NCBI GenBank assembly: GCA_005656395.1
Contig: SRSI01000078.1
Location: forward strand, 620,001-684,000
Origin: Strongyloides papillosus
Lineage: Eukaryota; Nematoda; Chromadorea; Rhabditida; Strongyloididae
DNA length: 64,000 bases
Direction: 5' to 3'
This document shows, piece after piece, positions 31,987-63,531 of the stretch (within the stretch, counting starts at the first letter, position 1; every line of letters starts with the position of its first letter). The notes beneath the pieces were generated by a model. The model was not told the origin of the DNA. It saw only the letters and a list, made by a program, of their open reading frames with translations, and ran no database searches. Both the position numbers and the translations under genes were made by a program.

Positions 31987-34900
31987 ATGAATGCTACATC
32001 AGCATATCACCATTCACGCACTATTGCTCATTATCCAATATTACGTGTCGTTGATCCAGTAACAACATATCCATCCATGAATGTTGGACCACTCCTTGAA
32101 AATTATTCTATAATTGGAGGACAAACTAATGGTCATTGGAGTCAAGTAAATGAAAGAGTACCATTACAACAAATAAATCAAGGTAAGTAAATATTATTAT
32201 TTTTTGAAATATTACTTCATCACAATTTAATTGATATCTCTCCCCCTCTTTTCAATACATCATAATTCATCTTAATAATATGTTATTTACATAATTTAAT
32301 AAAATGCCAGAGTTATAAAAAGCTAAAAGAATGAATAAGGATGTGAATTATGTTTCTGTTTAGTTATTTGTTTCTGTTTCAACAGTTACTATAATTTCGA
32401 ATAACAAACATTATTGTAAAAATATATAAAGTCTGGCAGGGGGAAAGAAGTTAAGAGATAATAAAAAGTAATTTAAAAGAACATCTGGATAAGTAAAATT
32501 GTAACTTATACATTTTTAAATATTCTTCATTCTGTTGATTGCACTTTCAAAAGTATATTGTTATTTTAATCATACATATGTAATAATGATGTTATTTATA
32601 TATATAATATCACAAGTTTTTAGTGATTTTTATTTTTGAGAGCATAAGGTATCATCAATGGCAAATGTGATATTATTTAGTATATAGTAAGCATAATGAA
32701 GATTATAATATTGTTCTTAGATTTATATATATAAGATGTATCACATATTAAAATCTTCCTTTTCCATCTTTTTTCTTCCTCATCAAGTTTTAAATCTCTC
32801 CTTTTGACTTATTGGTAAGTAAATGATGAGACATTAATGTTCCTCTGGTTACAAGATACATTCCAGGGTAGTAAAAATAAAATATATATGATGATTAGTA
32901 GACCTAGGACATCTTGTCCCATTCACAAAAATTTTCAATGTATAAATATCAATCAGTTAAAAAGAAAGTTTAAGTAGGAGGGCAATTATTTAATACATCT
33001 CACTTAACTCTTTTTAATGCTTCCCATCTCACTTGCTAATACCTAGAAATATTATCTTTACTTTGTTTCTTCTTTGTGCCTAGATTTGTCTGATTAATTT
33101 TTATCCTACACCATAATATAAATATAATATATATTATTGCCATCGTCATTTAACTTGTCTTTTCCTCAATAATATATGTATTTGTAATATTTAATATAAT
33201 ATTATTTATTAATGTATTTTTTATATTATTAGTTAAAAAACTATTTTTAGCACCTATAATGGCTAACACAACATATGATGGTATCTACCAAACTTCTGAA
33301 ATTAATCAACCACTATTAGAAAATAACAATAGTGAAGTAACAATACTACAATTACAACCTAATCATCAATCTTCTAATACATCTAAAGATGTTATCATTG
33401 ATACAACATCATCATCAACACCTACAACAACAACATCAACAAAAGATCAAGTAAAATTAAATATGGATGGGAGAACACCGACACCAAATAGTTCTTCATC
33501 CTCTCAGGCATCAACAGATAAACTTTCTAATGCCTCGACAACAATATCATGTGGAACGAGCGCAAAATCTGCCACATCCGTTGGAACCTCACCACAATTA
33601 AATTCATTTGTTGGTCCAAAAACACCACCATTAAATGGTGGGAATAGTAATAATAATCAAAATGAATCTGTGCCAAAAAGATTACATGTGTCAAATATAC
33701 CATTTCGTTTTCGTGATAATGATTTGAAGAGTATGTTTGAGAAGTATGGTACAGTTACTGATGTTGAGATTATTTTCAATGATCGTGGAAGTAAAGTAAG
33801 GGATATTTTTTTGTTTATTATTATTATTAATATTTTTTTCTAGGGTTTTGGTTTTGTTACGATGGATAATGCTTCAGATGCTGAGAAAGCTAAAGCATCA
33901 CTCAATGGAACAACGGTTGAAGGAAGAAAAATAGAGGTAAGTTATTATATCACAAGCACAAAACGACATCATTTGTGCAAAATCATTTTTTACCGGCAAC
34001 TATATATCATAAAAGAGGATGTGCATGGAAAAGTATTATTATATTATTATTATTTTTTATAAAACTACATTAAGTTATACATTATATATAACATATATAA
34101 ACTATCAACAACAGCACGTTAGATAGAGACATTAATATATATGATAGCTTGAAATCAACATAAAATCAAAAAAAATTGAAAGTGTATTGTTTTTAGTAGA
34201 GTGTTTCTACAACCATCCATATCAATTGACAATAATATATAATCTTTTTGAAGGTTTAAACTTTACGATTTTAAAATTTGTAGTCTCTTTCACTTCTTCA
34301 AGTTTGTGAATAATAATTTTTTTAAGCACGTCATATGGTTATGCTTTTAAATTTATACTCTCTATCAAAATATATTGGTTAGGAAGGAAAAATATTATAC
34401 CTAATAATATTTATAGTTGATATTATATCAACTTATGATATGTAACATATCATATTATTTAAATCCAGATGATTCATTATTTTTCTTTTTCTGAAATTTA
34501 TGTGGTTTTAAATATGAGAGGAGAAGTCAATAATAATGACAAGTTAGCTTTTTTTATAAAAGAAAAATAAATTTAGATAATTTTTTAAAAAAATTATTCA
34601 TAATATTGTTTGATTTTTAAATTTATTTTAATAATTTGTTTGCTTTTGAGGTGAATCATGCAACTGCCCGAGTCCACTCTAAAAAACCGAAAAACGTTTA
34701 TGGTGAGTATTATTATTTTATTACTTTTTTTTTGAATGAATTTTTTTTATCTTTTTTGTATCTTAGCATGTTTCAAAGCATGAGAATTTAATTGGAGCTT
34801 TGTACATCTTTTACTTTTTTTAATTTTAAAAGGGTTATATTTATTTTATTGTTTATTTACTTTTAGCAAATATTGATCAAAATGCAACGATTGCTGTTTT

Positions 34901-35501
34901 GCAGAATGCTGCATTGAAACAAGCTATTAATAATATTGCTGCTAGAAATCCATATGGAAATTTAGGACTAAGAAATCCTCTTGCTGCCACAGCAACGTCA
35001 TTAGTTTTACCATTGGCATTACAGCAATCAGCTGCTGTCCAAGCACAAAATCAAGCATTGCAACAATTGTATGCTGCTCAGTTATATCAACAAGCACAAC
35101 CATTACTGTTTGCTTCTGGCGGTGTACCACAACAAGCAGCAGCTGCAGCAGTACAATTACAACTTCAAACTCAATTATCTAATAATTCAATCTCAACAAG
35201 TAATGTAACAAGTGCAGGCATTTTAGATCCAAATACAGCAGCGTTATATGGTGTAGATCATGCTAGATTACAACAAATATTATTATCACAACAACAAAAT
35301 GCTTTAGCAAATAGTGTAGCAGTTAATGCCCGTGTACCCCAACCAACAGTTACTGGAGCATCATCAACACCCACAACAGTTGTTACAGCTCAAAATGGTG
35401 CAAATATATTAGGCGAACCATATTTAGGAAATGCTTTACAAACTCATATGTCAACATATAACTCGCAATATAGGCAGGCAAATCGTTACCAACCATACTA
35501 A
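31987..35501 (+). CDS. fox-1: RBFOX (Fox-1/ASD-1) RNA-binding splicing regulator
   Basis: Five coding exons (31987-32182, 33251-33795, 33844-33936, 34651-34702, 34867-35501) join in frame to 506 aa. The single RRM starts [17 protein letters not shown] (RNP2) and continues [16 protein letters not shown] (RNP1), ending [19 protein letters not shown]. These blocks are nearly diagnostic of RBFOX, which binds (U)GCAUG to switch exons in muscle and neurons. The N-terminal half is a Thr/Ser/Gln/Asn-rich low-complexity region. The C-terminus is Ala/Gln-rich (for example [15 protein letters not shown]) and ends NRYQPY. Exon 3 is exactly 93 nt (31 codons), the same size as the conserved RRM exon that vertebrate RBFOX genes skip to make a dominant-negative form. 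Alternative first exons upstream are possible, so the N-terminus may have other versions. Confidence 0.93.
32183..33250 (+). other. RBFOX intron 1, 1.07 kb
   Basis: GTAAGT donor, TTTTTAG acceptor, phase 1. No gene recognised inside. ATG 33259, shortly after the acceptor, could serve as an alternative start. Confidence 0.6.
33937..34650 (+). other. RBFOX intron 3, 0.7 kb, with a TGCATG site
   Basis: Lies after the conserved 93-nt RRM exon. It is long compared with the other introns of this region and contains one RBFOX consensus site near its start. Confidence 0.6.
34022..34027 (+). promoter_or_regulatory. TGCATG: candidate RBFOX autoregulatory site
   Basis: The exact RBFOX hexamer UGCAUG lies 85 nt downstream of the 5' splice site of the 93-nt RRM exon. 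In the family, sites downstream of an exon usually promote its inclusion. Two weaker GCATG pentamers (34766-34770, 34778-34782) lie in the following intron. Confidence 0.5.
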
Positions 35502-36489
35502 AGATAGGAGGGAAAAAATAGTGTTAATTGTGTGTAAATCAAAAATTATTGTCTATAAGTTATTTGAATGTATAATAATATCATGATTAGATAATAATTT
35601 ATTATTTTCCTATCTCAAAAATCGATGTCCTGTCAAATATGTTGGTTCAATATCTCTTTTTTGTGGAATATTTTGAAGGAAGTGTTTAGAAGTTAATGAA
35701 AACATTCAAAAAAATTTCTAATTCCATTGTGCTTTACAAAAAAATTTTACGGTGTTTTTATGTCTAATAATATTTGGAAGGTACCCAAGTCTGTAACATT
35801 TAAACAATCAGTAGTTTTTTTTAATATTATGAATAAAAGAAAAAAAAGTGAAAAAATATTTTAATTTAATTAACGAGAAAAAAAAATAGTGCAATCATAT
35901 GTTTTAATTGTCTTTAACATTATTATATGTAACATTTTAATGGAAAAATCAAAATTGTTTATTTATAGAGAAAGATAGTATTTTTTTAAATTACTCTGTC
36001 ATAAAGTTGTTTATATATTTTTTAACTTTTTATTTTTTACTTCATTATTTATATTTTTATATAGGTATATGAAGATAAAAATAGGAGGGTGAAAAAGTAT
36101 ATTACATATTAAAATGTTGTAAGATCTCTCTATATCTCTCATTTTATATATATAAATATTTTTTTCTTTTTGATAAATTTTTTAAATATATATTTAGAAC
36201 AATAAAGGATATATAAATGAAGTGTAATGATCATTAAAAATTCTTTCTATAGAATGATGTTTGGTTATAAATGAAAATGAAGTGAATTTCAACTGATGGT
36301 AAACGATAAATTATTTTATGTATCAATTTAAAGAGTTTTTCTTATATATTTTATTAATATTTGATGAGTTTTGTGACGTATCATTTGTGAATTTCTGGAG
36401 TATATATATGTTTGTTTTGTTTATTATTACTATTTCTAAATAATATCATTCTTATAAGGTATTACTTTGTATTATTTTCAATTTCTTTA
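35502..36489. other. RBFOX 3' UTR and spacer
   Basis: About 1 kb. An AATAAA at 35832-35837 could end the RBFOX transcript. No other feature recognised. Confidence 0.4.
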
Positions 36490-57165: not shown

Positions 57166-60100
57166 ATGTTTCATACCATATTACTTGGTGGATTCATTCT
57201 CATTTTGAATTATTTTCCAAGTTTATTTGGATTAAGATTTGAAAGTAAGTTGATACCTTTTTTTTCTACAAAATAAATTTCTATCAATTCTAGATTCATT
57301 ATTTGCTGAAGGACCGCCGAGATTTGAGAAGATTGCAAAATTAACTCATGATGTTTTATTGGGTGAATCAGTAAAATTAGATTGTAGTGCTCTAGCTAGA
57401 CCAGCACCCTCAATTCATTGGTATAGAAATGATATTTTTTTAACATATAACATGTTAAAAAGTGATGAAAGATTACAAGAAAAAAAAATGACACTTGAGA
57501 TTAATGGTATTGAGGTGAAAGATCAAGGGAAATGGGCATGCAAGGCTTGGAATAGTCAAGGATATATATTTAGAAATTTTACAATCGAAGTTATTGGTAA
57601 GTTCATATTTGTTTGTTTAACTTTTTAAAATTAATTTAACTCTTTCTTTTTGTGTGTTGTTTGCATGTACCAATATATATTATTTTTAATCTTTTAGATT
57701 ATTGTGATTACTATAAAAAAGAAGGTATAAATCCTTCAATTGTCCCATTAGAGTGTATTTGTTTATGGTTGACGTTGCATGAAAGAATAACAGAAGAGGA
57801 TGTGTGGGTTGATATAAATAAAACTGATTGCCTACCACATAGAGATTTTATTAAAAGAAATATTCAAAATCTTAATACCGGTATGGAAGTTAAAGAGGAG
57901 GAGGAAGAGGAGACAAGATCAACATTAGGATATGTAACTAAAACATATGAAAGTTATGCTAATAAACTCCTTCCAGCCATCTATACAACAACCCCACATC
58001 CTAAAAAAGAACAAAAGCATGATAATATTGATGATGATCCAATTGAGCATGAAACTGTACCCCCAACAACTGGTGAGTAAATAATTACTTATATTTTTTT
58101 TCCAGATCCAATAAAATTATTTGATATCATTAGTGTGGGAGGAGATAATTTAGAGTATGATAAATTATTTCCTGGCATCATTGATTTAAATAGATTATTT
58201 TATTATCGTAAAAACTTAGTTGGTTGGAATTACCTAACTTTAAATGATAAAATTAAAAGAGCTAAAGAAATTTTAGGAAAACAACCAGACATTCAGGAGA
58301 CTGGTGGAGATGATGATAGTGATGAAAGTCTTTTTGATCCAAGTTTATTGGATAAAAACTATTTAACACAACCCTCTAAAAATCAACCAAAATACAAAGG
58401 ATATAATGAGGGTGAAAGGACAAAACCATATTTTAAAGGTAAAAATGATTCAGAAAATATGAAAGAACATATTGTTGTACCAGCTGGTAAGACAATAAAT
58501 TTACCATGTAAAGCATTTGGTGTCCCAGAACCTGATACTGTATGGTTTAGAAATTATAAATTAATCATGGGTGGGACAACAAGACCAACTGGTTCAATAT
58601 ATAAAAAAAGAAAGTGGTCTTTACAGATTGAAGATATCTCGGATGCTGATTCTGGTACCTTTATATGTGAAGCATTCAATTCTCAGGGTAGTGCTAAAAA
58701 AACATATATTGTTGAGGTAGTTGATAGATTACGTACCAAACCAATAATGGTACCAGGGATTTTACAAAGTCAATCAATTGATACCAATAAAACAGCAAAT
58801 TTTACTTGTCGATACATTAGTGACTTGACTCCACATATTATGTGGGTTAAATTGAAGAAAAATACTGATCATGATTTTGTTGTTTTTAATCACACCTCTC
58901 CGAAGTATAAATTTAATTACACTGATGTTATGGAAAATCCAAGAGCAACAATTATTGATGGTATTGATACAACAACGTTACTTATTAATAATGTAACGAT
59001 TGAAGATAAAGGTGTTTATGCGTGTTTAATTGGAAATTCTTTAGGATTTGTAAGTTTATTTGTAAAATCGAATAATAATCTAATTAATTTCATAGACAAT
59101 GGATATGGCTAATTTAACGGTAAACGAATTTCATACATATATTATCAAAACCCTCGATCCATCAAATGTTAATATATCACCATACATAATTTACGCTTCA
59201 ATCGTTGGTTTAATTCTCTTTGCTTTAGTAATCGGTAGTGGAATATATTGTTGGTTGACGAGGAAAAAGAATGCTGATCAATTTAAAGTCTTCAATCCTG
59301 ATGATGTCAATGTTGGTGTTAAGAAAATTGTATCAATTGTCCCTAAAAAAGTCAATAATTGTGATCCGAATTGGTCAGATTTCACCTCATCATATGAAAT
59401 ATCTATAAGACAGGTGTTGTCGAAGCACCATTGTGTTAATAATGATGTCCCAGGACTAGCTAATTATGAAGCTGAAACAGATCCAAAGTGGGAGATTGAT
59501 AGAAATAGATTACAGATGTTAAGCATACTTGGTGAAGGGGCTTTTGGCCAAGTATGGAAAGGTTTGCTAACACAAAAGACTTCTAAAGGTGGTAAAGGAG
59601 AAACAATACCAGTTGCAGTAAAAAAATTGAAGAGAGATGCTCAAGAGAAGGAGTTTGTTGATTTGATCGGTGAGATGCAAACATTTAAATCCATTGGACA
59701 TCATGAAAATATCTTATCATTATTGGGGTGTTGTACTGGACGTGGTCCATTACTAATGGTTTTACAATTATGCAAATATGGCAATTTACGTGATTTCCTA
59801 CGATCACATCGTCCTAACGAAGTTAGAGAGGCTAATGAAAGAAGAATTCAAGGTATACAGAATGAATTGGATGTCTTCGATACCTCGACAGTTAATTATT
59901 TGAAACCTCTTGATGGTAGTGATAATGAACCAGTACAAAGTTTAACACAAAGGCATCTTGTACAATTTGCTCTTCAAATAGCATCGGGAATGGAGCATCT
60001 AGCAAAAAGAAAAATAATCCATAGAGATTTAGCTGCAAGGAATGTTCTTGTCGCTGATAATTATGTTTTAAAGATATCAGATTTTGGTTTGTCTCGTGAT

Positions 60101-61195
60101 ATTAATTTAAATAACTATTATCGTAAGAAAGAGAATGGGAGGTTACCAATAAAATGGATGGCACTAGAAGCTTTAGACTCATTAGTCTACACCTTGGCGT
60201 CTGATGTTTGGTCATTTGGTATATTATTATGGGAAATAATGACATTAGGCGGTACACCATATCCAACCATTGATATGGCAAAATTATTTACTATTCTTAA
60301 AAAAGGTTATAGAATGGAGGCACCACATAATTGTCCTCAAGAGATATATAATGTTATGCAAGCTTGTTGGCAAGAGAAACCTGATGACAGACCAAATTTC
60401 ACAGCAATAATTGATTATTTTCAATGGATGATAAAGAATGATGATGCACTACAAAGAGGTGAAATTATTGAGTATGAATCTAGTGATGATGAGAGTAAAG
60501 ATGAGACAAATGCTTTACTTCCAAAAGTTGATAATAAAAATTTGTTGAAGAAGACAAAGTTAATTAGAGGTCTTGATGAGGTTGTTGTTATTGAACCTGA
60601 AGTAAGTTTTTATCACATAATATCGATAATTATATTTTTTTAAATTTTCCAGGATGTCCGAAGAAATAGGATGACTGAAGCAATGACAGCAAGAGCTAGT
60701 GAAATATTTAGATCACCAGGTATTATAGAGAAAGCATTTGACATTGATTCAAGTGAAGGAAACTCGCCATGGTACAATGGGGACGATCATGAAATGTCAC
60801 CAGGAAGTAGGAAAAGAATTAGAAGAGATTCATCACCAATACATTACATTCAAACACAATCAAGTCCCCCTCCATTACCACCAAGATTGGGAAGACCAGA
60901 GAGAGAGAAACATAAATTATCCAATGAAATATATAATAATCATCCAATTATTCCAACAATATTACCAAAAATTAATGAGGAACTAGAGAGTTCTAGAGCT
61001 AGTAAAAAATCATCTTCAGAGAATAGTAGTGGATCCAATGAAACAGAAAAATCTAACGGTATATCACAATATTATAATACAAATATGGGAGGAAAAGATA
61101 TTAAGCGATATCAACCAAGTGAATTATCATCCCTCCATCAAAGTAGTAGTCGTAAAATTTTAAATAAAAAATCAAATTCATCAAACGGTTCGTGA
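57166..61195 (+). CDS. egl-15: fibroblast growth factor receptor, EGL-15 type
   Basis: Six exons (57166-57244, 57294-57596, 57698-58072, 58106-59049, 59096-60601, 60653-61195) join in frame to 1,249 aa. Order: signal peptide; Ig1 (LDCSALARP...WACKAWN, about aa 40-127); an EGL-15-type insert (aa 128 to about 370) with an EEEEEE acidic stretch; Ig2 (LPCKAFGVPEPD...FICEAFNSQG); Ig3 (FTCRYISD...YACLIGNSLG); a transmembrane segment near aa 598-622. The split tyrosine kinase follows: GEGAFGQVWKG, VAVKKLK, HRDLAARN, DFGLSRD, YYRKKENGRLPIKWMALEAL. The tail has PPPLPPRLGRP, a class II SH3 ligand, and a YYNT motif. It should bind FGF (EGL-17/LET-756 type) and signal through SEM-5/Ras. The apparent frame change near 59050 is a 46-nt intron. 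Intron 3 is only 33 nt. Confidence 0.93.
57652..57667 (+). promoter_or_regulatory. paired GTGTG and TGCATG splicing elements before FGFR exon 3
   Basis: In the 101-nt intron 57597-57697, GTGTG (57652-57656) is followed after TTGTT by TGCATG (57662-57667), about 30 nt before the acceptor. In C. elegans egl-15, SUP-12 (GUGUG-type site) and ASD-1/FOX-1 (UGCAUG) bind adjacent elements upstream of the alternative exon between Ig1 and Ig2. Position and motif identity match; the order is reversed relative to the C. elegans arrangement as I remember it. Confidence 0.6.
58073..58105 (+). other. 33-nt intron of the FGF receptor
   Basis: GTGAGT donor and TTTTTTTCCAG acceptor. Reading through would meet an in-frame TAA, and removal restores a phase-1 junction (G|AT), so the intron is needed despite its extreme shortness. 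Confidence 0.75.
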
Positions 61196-61213
61196 AAGTT
61201 TTATTCCCCCTAA

Positions 61214-61294
61214 AGCATGACTAGAAAAAGATTTTTATTTTTATATTATTTGCATGTAAGCATCAAGTAAATTTTTAAAAAAACACAATGCATG
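61214..61294 (+). promoter_or_regulatory. cluster of TGCATG/GCATG elements 3' of FGFR exon 6
   Basis: AGCATG at 61214-61219, TGCATG at 61251-61256 and TGCATG at 61289-61294 lie between the exon 6 stop and the candidate exon at 61353. If that stretch is an intron in some transcripts, RBFOX is a plausible regulator of its use. Confidence 0.45.
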
Positions 61295-61352
61295 AGTATT
61301 ATAATCAGTTTAATTGTTATTTTATGTGAAATAAAAGTAGTATTATTTACAG

Positions 61353-61615
61353 AATTGATATTGACGTCAAAGAATTTAGTTGACTTAAAGAGATGGAAAT
61401 TTGAGGAGACAAAATATGTTCATTCTTGTGAAAGTTCCAGTGGTCGAGGAAGTTCAAATGGGATGTCAGGTTACTATGAAGATATTGAAGAAAATAATTA
61501 TGGGAATGGTATTTACCATCCTAAAAAAGTTTATAATACTGATTATTATACTAGTATTAATTATAATGCTAAATTAATGAAAAAACACGAATATTTAAAC
61601 ATTAATACTAATTAA
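61353..61615 (+). CDS. egl-15: candidate alternative last exon of the FGF receptor
   Basis: A frame open from ATG 61292 to the TAA at 61613-61615 contains a good acceptor (TATTATTTACAG, ending 61352). A GTAAAA donor at 61152 inside exon 6 leaves phase 1, which matches the phase this exon needs. The result would swap the last 14 residues of the 1,249-aa form for about 87 new ones. The new tail is Tyr-rich: YYEDIEENNYGNG, VYNTDYYTSINYN and HEYLNI. YGNG and YLNI fit the YxN consensus for GRB2/SEM-5 SH2 binding, which is where C. elegans EGL-15 recruits SEM-5. Read alone from ATG 61292, it would be a 107-aa protein with a hydrophobic N-terminus; I prefer the exon model. Confidence 0.5.
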
Positions 61616-61950: not shown

Positions 61951-63531
61951 ATGTCTATATCATTAGATAATATTTATGAAATTTATGAGAAAGGTTGTAA
62001 ACACAATGACCATGGAAATTTAAAAATGGCAAGTGTTTTTATAAAAGAGGCTATAAAAGCATGTGAATCTCTTATTGACAATTCTAAAACTAGTAAAGAT
62101 AGAAGTAATGCTATTCAGGTAACTATTAATTTGTTAAAGTATCTTATGAGTGGTTAATTTTTTTAGGTTCTTAAGATTATGAAAGATCATGAGAAGAGTA
62201 TTGATGAACTAGAAAAGAAGGTTGACGATATTGGTAAACTGATAAGATGCCAATCTAGTTTGGAGCCAACACCATCAGATCCATTACCACAACAAAAGTC
62301 AACAAAAATAACACCCATCCAAGGGAAGACAATAAAATCACGAGTTACCGGACGTGGTGGAAGTACCAATTCACCATCATCAATAAACTCTACCCCCCCA
62401 ATCTCAGCTAAGAAGGGTACACCGACAGGAGGAAAAAATAAAGGATATGTTTCAAGGGAAACAAAAGCAAAAGCTGCTAGTAATGTAGCAACATCATATG
62501 ATTCTATTAATAAAAATGAGGAAGAAAATAGTAAGGGCGAAAACAATGAACAAAATGAACAAAGTGAATTTGTATCACTTCAATCACCAGAACTTGTTGA
62601 ATCAGTTAAAACAAGTATTAAAGATGAGAATCCAAATGTTCAATGGGATGATATAGTTGGTCTAGATCAACTAAAAACATCTTTGAGACATTCAATTGTT
62701 GTTTCAAAGATCTTACCTCAATTATTTGTTGGTATTAGAAGACCAACAAGGACATTCCTATTATATGGACCGCCAGGAACTGGAAAAACATTAATCGCAA
62801 AAGCAGTTGCTACTGAATGTCAATATAAATTTTTTTGTGTTACACCATCAGTAATCTCATCCAAATGGAGGGGTGATTCCGAGAAATTGATAAGAGTTTT
62901 GTTTGATACAGCAAAATCGTATGCACCATCTATTTTGTTTTTTGATGAGATTGATTCAATAACTTTGAAGAGAGGTAAAAATGCTGAACACGAAGCAACT
63001 AGGAGAACTATATGTGAATTTTTAGTTCAATTTGAAGGTAAGTAACAGTTTTTTAATGATAATAATAAAATAAAATTTTTTTTAGAGATTTCGAAAAGTG
63101 ATGAGACAAAAGTATACGTACTAGCAGCAACAAATCGTCCATGGGATATTGATGAGGCAGTTTTAAGGAGATTTGAGGCTAAATTTTATGTCCCTTTACC
63201 AGATGAGGTATCAAGAGCAACAATAGTAAGGAATGCAATGAGAGAAATTCACCTATCGGATGAGTTTTCATTTGAGAATGTTGCAAAAAAACTAGAAGGT
63301 TATTCAGCATCAGATATTGTAAATATATGTAAGACAGCAGCAATGATACCAGTAAGCGAATTTTTAAAATCAATCTCATTATCAGACATGGCATCACTTC
63401 AAGATAAAGGTGGCTGCCCACAACTTCCAGTATCAGAGGAACATTTTGATAGGGCAATAGATCAAACAGTAAAGTCCGTATCAAAAGATTCTTTAGAAGA
63501 TTATACAAAATGGGGCAATAATTGTATGTAA
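61951..63531 (+). CDS. katanin p60/MEI-1-like microtubule-severing AAA ATPase
   Basis: Three exons (61951-62118, 62167-63037, 63086-63531) give 494 aa. An N-terminal helical MIT-like domain (about aa 1-80) is followed by a Gly/Ser/Thr/Pro-rich linker. The AAA core is of the meiotic clade (katanin, spastin, Vps4): WDDIVGLDQLK, Walker A GPPGTGKT (about aa 257), pore loop SKWRGDSEK, Walker B ILFFDEID, a HEATRR arginine region, and sensor 1 VLAATNRPWD with DEAVLRRFEAKFYVPLP. The C-terminus VSKDSLEDYTKWGNNCM is the katanin/spastin-type terminal helix and resembles MEI-1, not Vps4, as there is no beta domain. It should sever microtubules in spindles or neurons. Spastin- or fidgetin-like assignment is the alternative. 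A start-stop ATGTAA just upstream may damp translation. Confidence 0.8.

Follow-up and report, generated by a model that had tools for sequence, protein, structure and literature searches.

Does the FGF receptor gene of Strongyloides papillosus still choose between two alternative extracellular inserts and, if so, by what means? The tissue-specific splicing of C. elegans egl-15 is well studied: as described in PMC11519726, exons 5A and 5B are alternative sources of the insert that separates Ig1 from the acid box. According to the main text of PMC3585155 and to PMC3469465, 5A is made in C. elegans muscle because ASD-1/FOX-1 and SUP-12 repress the acceptor of the upstream exon, 5B, and in the account of PMC7787662 this repression works via a single GCAUG. 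The author summary of PMC3585155 states that these factors direct the selection of 5B, which conflicts with the paper's own text and with the 5B repression described in PMC3469465. The window, that is, the whole 64-kb stretch of S. papillosus DNA in whose coordinates all positions below are given, holds a receptor gene for which the initial annotation had proposed control by the same regulators in a simpler form, the inclusion or skipping of a lone cassette exon.

An egl-15-type receptor gene

The gene spans 57166-61615 on the plus strand in seven exons, delimited by reading frames and homology. Exon 1 (57166-57244) encodes what by eye is a signal peptide, and exon 2 (57294-57596) encodes Ig1 and ends in phase 1 at ...EVI. 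A 101-nt intron with a weak acceptor (57597-57697) precedes exon 3 (57698-58072, 375 nt), which is separated by only 33 nt (58073-58105) from exon 4, a single open exon (58106-59049) whose portion from 58277 onward carries the acid box, Ig2 and part of Ig3. Exon 5 (59096-60601) contains the end of Ig3, the transmembrane segment and the kinase, exon 6 (60653-61187) begins the tail and, after the 165-nt intron 6 (61188-61352), exon 7 (61353-61615) adds a C-terminal tail with SSSGRGSSNGMSG that resembles the tails of relatives; this last intron and exon 7 were placed by comparing the gene with P0001, a protein of S. papillosus. The lengths and coordinates that the initial annotation gave to exon 3 and its two flanking introns hold, and so does the phase 1 that it assigned to both introns: exon 2 joins exon 4 in frame and, by these phases, skipping of exon 3 is indeed frame-neutral.

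The assignment to the EGL-15 type also stands, as the predicted protein has Ig domains, an FGFR kinase and, between Ig1 and the acid box, the insert specific to EGL-15. Within the 58.2-Mb genome, the tyrosine-kinase profile PF07714 has its top match in the kinase exon of this gene, and identity over aligned columns reaches 99% with P0001, 78% with P0002 from Parastrongyloides and 86% with P0003, whose source is, judged by similarity, a Strongyloides. By domain content and homology, the gene is a nematode FGFR, the Strongyloides-type orthologue of C. elegans egl-15. A genome search for a second copy matched only the locus itself. The downstream neighbour (61952-63531, plus strand) encodes an AAA ATPase that by eye is VPS4/katanin-like, its N-terminal region having a helical look.

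Homologues of 5A and 5B, one fused to the downstream exon

Exon 3 and the start of exon 4 were compared with the C. elegans reference proteins for 5A (P0040) and 5B (P0035). Exon 3 matches 5B with a local score of 78, which none of 2000 shuffles attained. The segment 58106-58276 matches C. elegans 5A, which PMC11519726 delimits as D128-L192, with a score of 64 (shuffles: mean 21.6, sd 4.0; 0/2000 as good), and the 5A of Onchocerca with a score of 66 (likewise 0/2000), while the cross comparisons of 5A with 5B are at the level of chance, 407 and 733 of 2000 shuffles being equally good. Following ...EVI, each insert opens on the same split codon, for Asp, and exons 3 and 4 thereby begin at D128, where 5A and 5B both begin in C. 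elegans. The 5B homologue thus lies directly after Ig1 in phase 1 and the 5A homologue, also in phase 1, lies downstream of it; there is no separate 5A exon with its own donor, the insert (DPIKLFD...GW...KIKRAKEIL) reading in frame into the downstream exon. Homology thus identifies exon 3 as the 5B insert and places the 5A insert in the first 57 codons of exon 4, where it is fused to the common part. The initial annotation had reasoned that the introns around exon 3 leave no room for a second exon copy, but that copy is the beginning of exon 4. Skipping of exon 3 would accordingly not delete 125 residues, as had been supposed, but exchange 5B for 5A, creating the ...EVI-DPIKLFD... junction that is also the 5A junction of C. 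elegans, and the notion of a simple skip-or-include cassette is contradicted by the presence of the partner insert.

The 5A insert has diverged. Six of its residues are reported in PMC11519726 to be conserved in six nematodes including Pristionchus; in our alignment S. papillosus keeps W167 and R178 and replaces S145 by D, L148 by F, K150 by G and L151 by I. Since S145 and L148 are reported in the same paper to be specifically needed for sex-myoblast migration in C. elegans, Strongyloides may have kept the 5A insert, but perhaps not its C. elegans role, and the function of 5A may differ in the parasites.

Among 27 relatives scanned, a 5B motif occurs in 25 and a 5A motif in seven, a count to be read with the caveat that the 5A motif requires the Trp and would miss a 5A like that of the window itself. 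Both inserts are complete in five; in P0039 the 5B that accompanies 5A is incomplete, and P0002 and P0014 combine 5B with part of 5A. That Strongyloides and filarial worms alike have the two inserts suggests that the pair is older than the split of these nematode clades. Models that unite 5B and 5A come from filarial worms, Thelazia and Caenorhabditis (P0007, P0008, P0013, P0016, P0037 and P0039, the last with its incomplete 5B). They may be prediction artefacts of a mutually exclusive pair, because the inserts are alternatives in C. elegans, but they could be real.

A proposed compact switch

We propose that the locus probably encodes a compact egl-15-type switch with mutually exclusive use of 5A and 5B, in which RBFOX is the likely repressor and SUP-12 or a CELF protein its partner. 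The donor of exon 2 would have a choice of two acceptors, that of 5B (57697) and that of 5A (58105). Once 5B is used, its own donor is presumably too close to the 5A acceptor, at 33 nt, to be joined to it and would use the weak acceptor at 58276, removing 5A within a 204-nt intron and yielding a 5B receptor of 1277 aa. If RBFOX and its partner block the 5B acceptor, exon 2 would join 58106 instead, exon 3 would be lost within a 509-nt intron and a 5A receptor of 1209 aa would result.

Motifs and candidate regulators

The intron before 5B contains the RBFOX-type motif TGCATG (57662-57667), which ends 30 nt before the 5B exon, and GTGTG (57652-57656), which is SUP-12-like or CELF-like and lies within TGTGTGTTGTTTG. 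Both motifs had been recorded in the initial annotation and are where it put them, but the gap between them is 5 nt rather than six bases. Dinucleotide shuffling of the 101-nt intron (20,000 trials) recreates TGCATG in 1.4% of cases, GTGTG in 9.7% and both within 15 nt of each other in 0.17%; GTGTG on its own is weak evidence. At the scale of the whole window the pair is unexceptional, as it arises at least once in 7 of 100 shuffles, and TGCATG shows no enrichment across these 64 kb (15 seen, 15.8 expected). What makes the RBFOX motif meaningful is that C. elegans egl-15 had specified this intron beforehand. Across the genome, GTGTG-N0-15-TGCATG has 88 matches (reversed-pattern control, 50) and TGCATG-N0-15-GTGTG has 76 (control, 38), a raw density of the pair, uncorrected for composition, of about 1.4e-4 per 101 nt. 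A control in U-rich windows, with the pair in 3 of 1650, was set aside as it probably counts intron 2 itself repeatedly.

Further RBFOX-type pentamers lie in the 5B exon. Exon 3 holds three GCATG (57777, 58017 and 58047), a number that synonymous recoding shows to be unusual only to a modest degree (P 0.01-0.02); in the coding sequence as a whole there are four, against 2.4-2.7 expected. The pentamer is biased towards the coding strand, with four occurrences on it and none on the other in 57597-58105, and eight and one, respectively, over the whole gene.

The order of the two motifs is not that of C. elegans, in which GUGUG reportedly follows UGCAUG in direct juxtaposition; in Strongyloides GUGUG stands on the 5' side, across the 5-nt gap. 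The zero-gap form TGCATGGTGTG makes up 7 of the 76 genome sites listed, none of them on this contig; two other kinase-domain matches contain it (G000:C9:261224-261234 and G000:C1:297333-297343). The string UGCAUGGUGUGC, which has the C. elegans order, does not occur in the literature among the matches listed.

Both RBFOX and SUP-12 proteins are encoded in the genome. The best RBFOX match, an orthologue of fox-1/asd-1 and a candidate trans-factor, lies at 33256-35502 on the plus strand and, although the model is partial at its 5' end, its RRM is complete. The SUP-12 RRM is 89% identical to a human RBM38 query sequence. The link to an RBFOX switch drawn in the initial annotation thus remains plausible, with UGCAUG upstream of 5B and an RBFOX orthologue in the genome, and its joint assignment to RBFOX and SUP-12 fares unevenly: the RBFOX half agrees with the UGCAUG, the strand bias of GCAUG and the orthologue, whereas the SUP-12 half fits weakly, the motif order being reversed and the GU-rich stretch also suiting CELF proteins. 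RBFOX control of the switch is accordingly plausible from the sequence, and SUP-12 is the less certain partner.

CELF proteins are candidate partners because the C. elegans geometry is not kept and because the GU-rich stretch of intron 2 includes, by eye, UGUGUUGU, part of the CELF/UNC-75 element. It is possible, though less likely than not, that the either-or choice is run by RBFOX together with a CELF protein of the UNC-75/ETR-1 type, and that it is neuronal or otherwise not muscle-specific. Intron 2 reads TTTTTGTGTGTTGTTTGCATG and in it we recognize by eye TGTGTTGT, which corresponds to the final 8 bases of UUGUUGUGUUGU, the UNC-75 element that is active with RBFOX in unc-32 as presented in PMC3585155. 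However, egl-15 is a known RBFOX/SUP-12 target, and the genome does have the SUP-12 RRM. We therefore leave the partner of RBFOX in the proposed switch as either protein.

The RBFOX gene shares the window with the receptor gene and ends about 22 kb upstream of it, a linkage that may be coincidence. Vertebrate Rbfox genes contain an autoregulated RRM exon of 93 nt, and the Strongyloides gene has an RRM exon that resembles it (GFGFV...KIE, 33844-33936), also 93 nt long and frame-neutral, with GCATG or GCACG in the two introns downstream (34023, 34114, 34326, 34766 and 34778).

Splice sites, the 33-nt gap and the proteins of relatives

If the 33-nt segment were itself spliced, exon 3 would be a plain cassette, giving both inserts when included and 5A only when skipped, with the reading frame kept in both products. 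The segment is bounded by a good donor and a very strong acceptor: in a small model built from 30 introns, of which this gene contributes four, the acceptor of 5A at 58105 (TTTTTTTTCCAG) reaches 10.3 bits and exceeds every one of the 30 reference acceptors, and the 5B acceptor at 57697 scores 4.4 bits, at their 20th percentile. The length of the segment argues against its removal. A heuristic finder run on about 307 kb of the genome gave 29 putative short introns, of which 21 are 39-58 nt long and the shortest is the 33-nt segment; at two other settings (26 and 27 introns) a single candidate was shorter, at 30 or 28 nt, and controls with wrong dinucleotides returned between 1 and 12 'introns' at each setting. 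Under stricter criteria, a run on 264 kb gave 22 introns, the shortest of 39 nt, and at this locus picked the 204-nt 5B intron; its three wrong-dinucleotide controls gave 4, 15 and 5 introns. Thus, 33 nt lies near the bottom of the intron lengths of this genome, with a minimum that rests on heuristic introns. No published minimum intron length for Strongyloides was found, the nearest being a 30-nt read-mapping setting in PMC3493385. Steric hindrance between closely spaced exons is, according to PMC3585155, one accepted basis of mutually exclusive splicing.

The proteins of relatives speak to the same point. The five models with both inserts and the three with one insert and part of the other (P0039, P0002 and P0014) would suit a cassette that can be included. 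However, the junction from 5B to DPIKLFD is absent from all three Strongyloididae-like proteins, P0001-P0003, whose genes may have gaps of other lengths, and the inserts are alternatives in C. elegans (PMC11519726). We thus consider a plain cassette improbable.

The proposed switch requires instead that 5B be spliced to an acceptor within exon 4. P0001 and P0003, both Strongyloides-type proteins, have 5B but no 5A, and their junctions fit acceptors inside exon 4, with exon starts at 58268 and 58277. In-phase acceptors were considered up to 58400, and eight of them were scored in exon 4 (58141-58288), one before 58310 being left out of the scoring. The best of the eight, at 5.1 bits, is 58276, the acceptor that fits P0003. 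P0001 fits 58267, a junction that we judged poor at 1.3 bits and that counts against the main reading.

That the gene makes a 5B receptor only, with 5A a relic in an intron and the motifs there by chance, is very unlikely: P0001 and P0003 are 5B only and just two of the six conserved 5A residues remain, but 5A is still open and in frame behind the strongest acceptor of all those scored, and P0002 keeps 28 of 39 residues of the second 5A part as counted on the alignment, so that this part is coding in Parastrongyloides.

Relation to known splicing switches

The proposed switch shares with egl-15 the receptor, the place of the insert after Ig1, a 5B upstream of a homologous 5A with the same starting Asp, and an RBFOX-type motif in the intron preceding 5B. 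Unlike in egl-15, 5A is fused to the downstream exon, the distance from 5B to 5A is just 33 nt, and the use of 5B depends on an acceptor within exon 4. GUGUG precedes UGCAUG, which in C. elegans it reportedly follows directly, the 5B exon has three more GCAUG, and 5A is without S145 and L148. The mutually exclusive exons 7a and 7b of C. elegans unc-32, controlled by RBFOX and the CELF protein UNC-75, likewise combine an RBFOX motif with a stretch containing UGUGUUGU, but in a different gene and with the two elements in different introns.

The insert pair and the idea of its control were already known; the fused, sterically tight layout is apparently new, at least to us. Descriptions of this switch in Strongyloides are absent from the titles and opening abstract lines of the literature matches listed, which lie mostly outside subscription journals, and only one database paper names both egl-15 and Strongyloides, each of them once. 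With 5A fused downstream, the locus is a natural setting in which to tell steric exclusion from trans-repression. It is tempting to go further and speculate, though we rate this as doubtful, that control has shifted from a single RBFOX site paired with an adjoining SUP-12 site to several scattered RBFOX sites (four GCAUG in intron 2 plus the 5B exon, another three in the last intron with its weak donor), the switch itself having been made steric by the 33-nt gap and the fusion of 5A to the downstream exon.

The last intron as a second possible control point

Intron 6 is a second possible control point, which we regard as a lead rather than a result. It holds three GCATG in 165 nt (61215, 61252 and 61290; P 5e-5 in 20,000 shuffles), two of which are TGCATG (P 3.5e-4 in shuffles), and its donor, ACG|GTTCGT, is the weakest of six scored, at 1.8 bits, a low rank that is partly built in, the donor reference set having been pre-filtered for consensus. 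These three GCAUG and the weak donor recall intron VI of C. elegans xol-1, in which FOX-1 acts through multiple GCAUG and GCACG clustered in one region to cause intron retention; unlike xol-1, the gene and the outcome are others here, and retention in Strongyloides is predicted only. If intron 6 were retained, the protein would end at ...SSNGS-stop and lose the tail with SSSGRGSSNGMSG that is common to relatives. The C. elegans EGL-15 isoforms P0035 and P0040 also have different C-termini.
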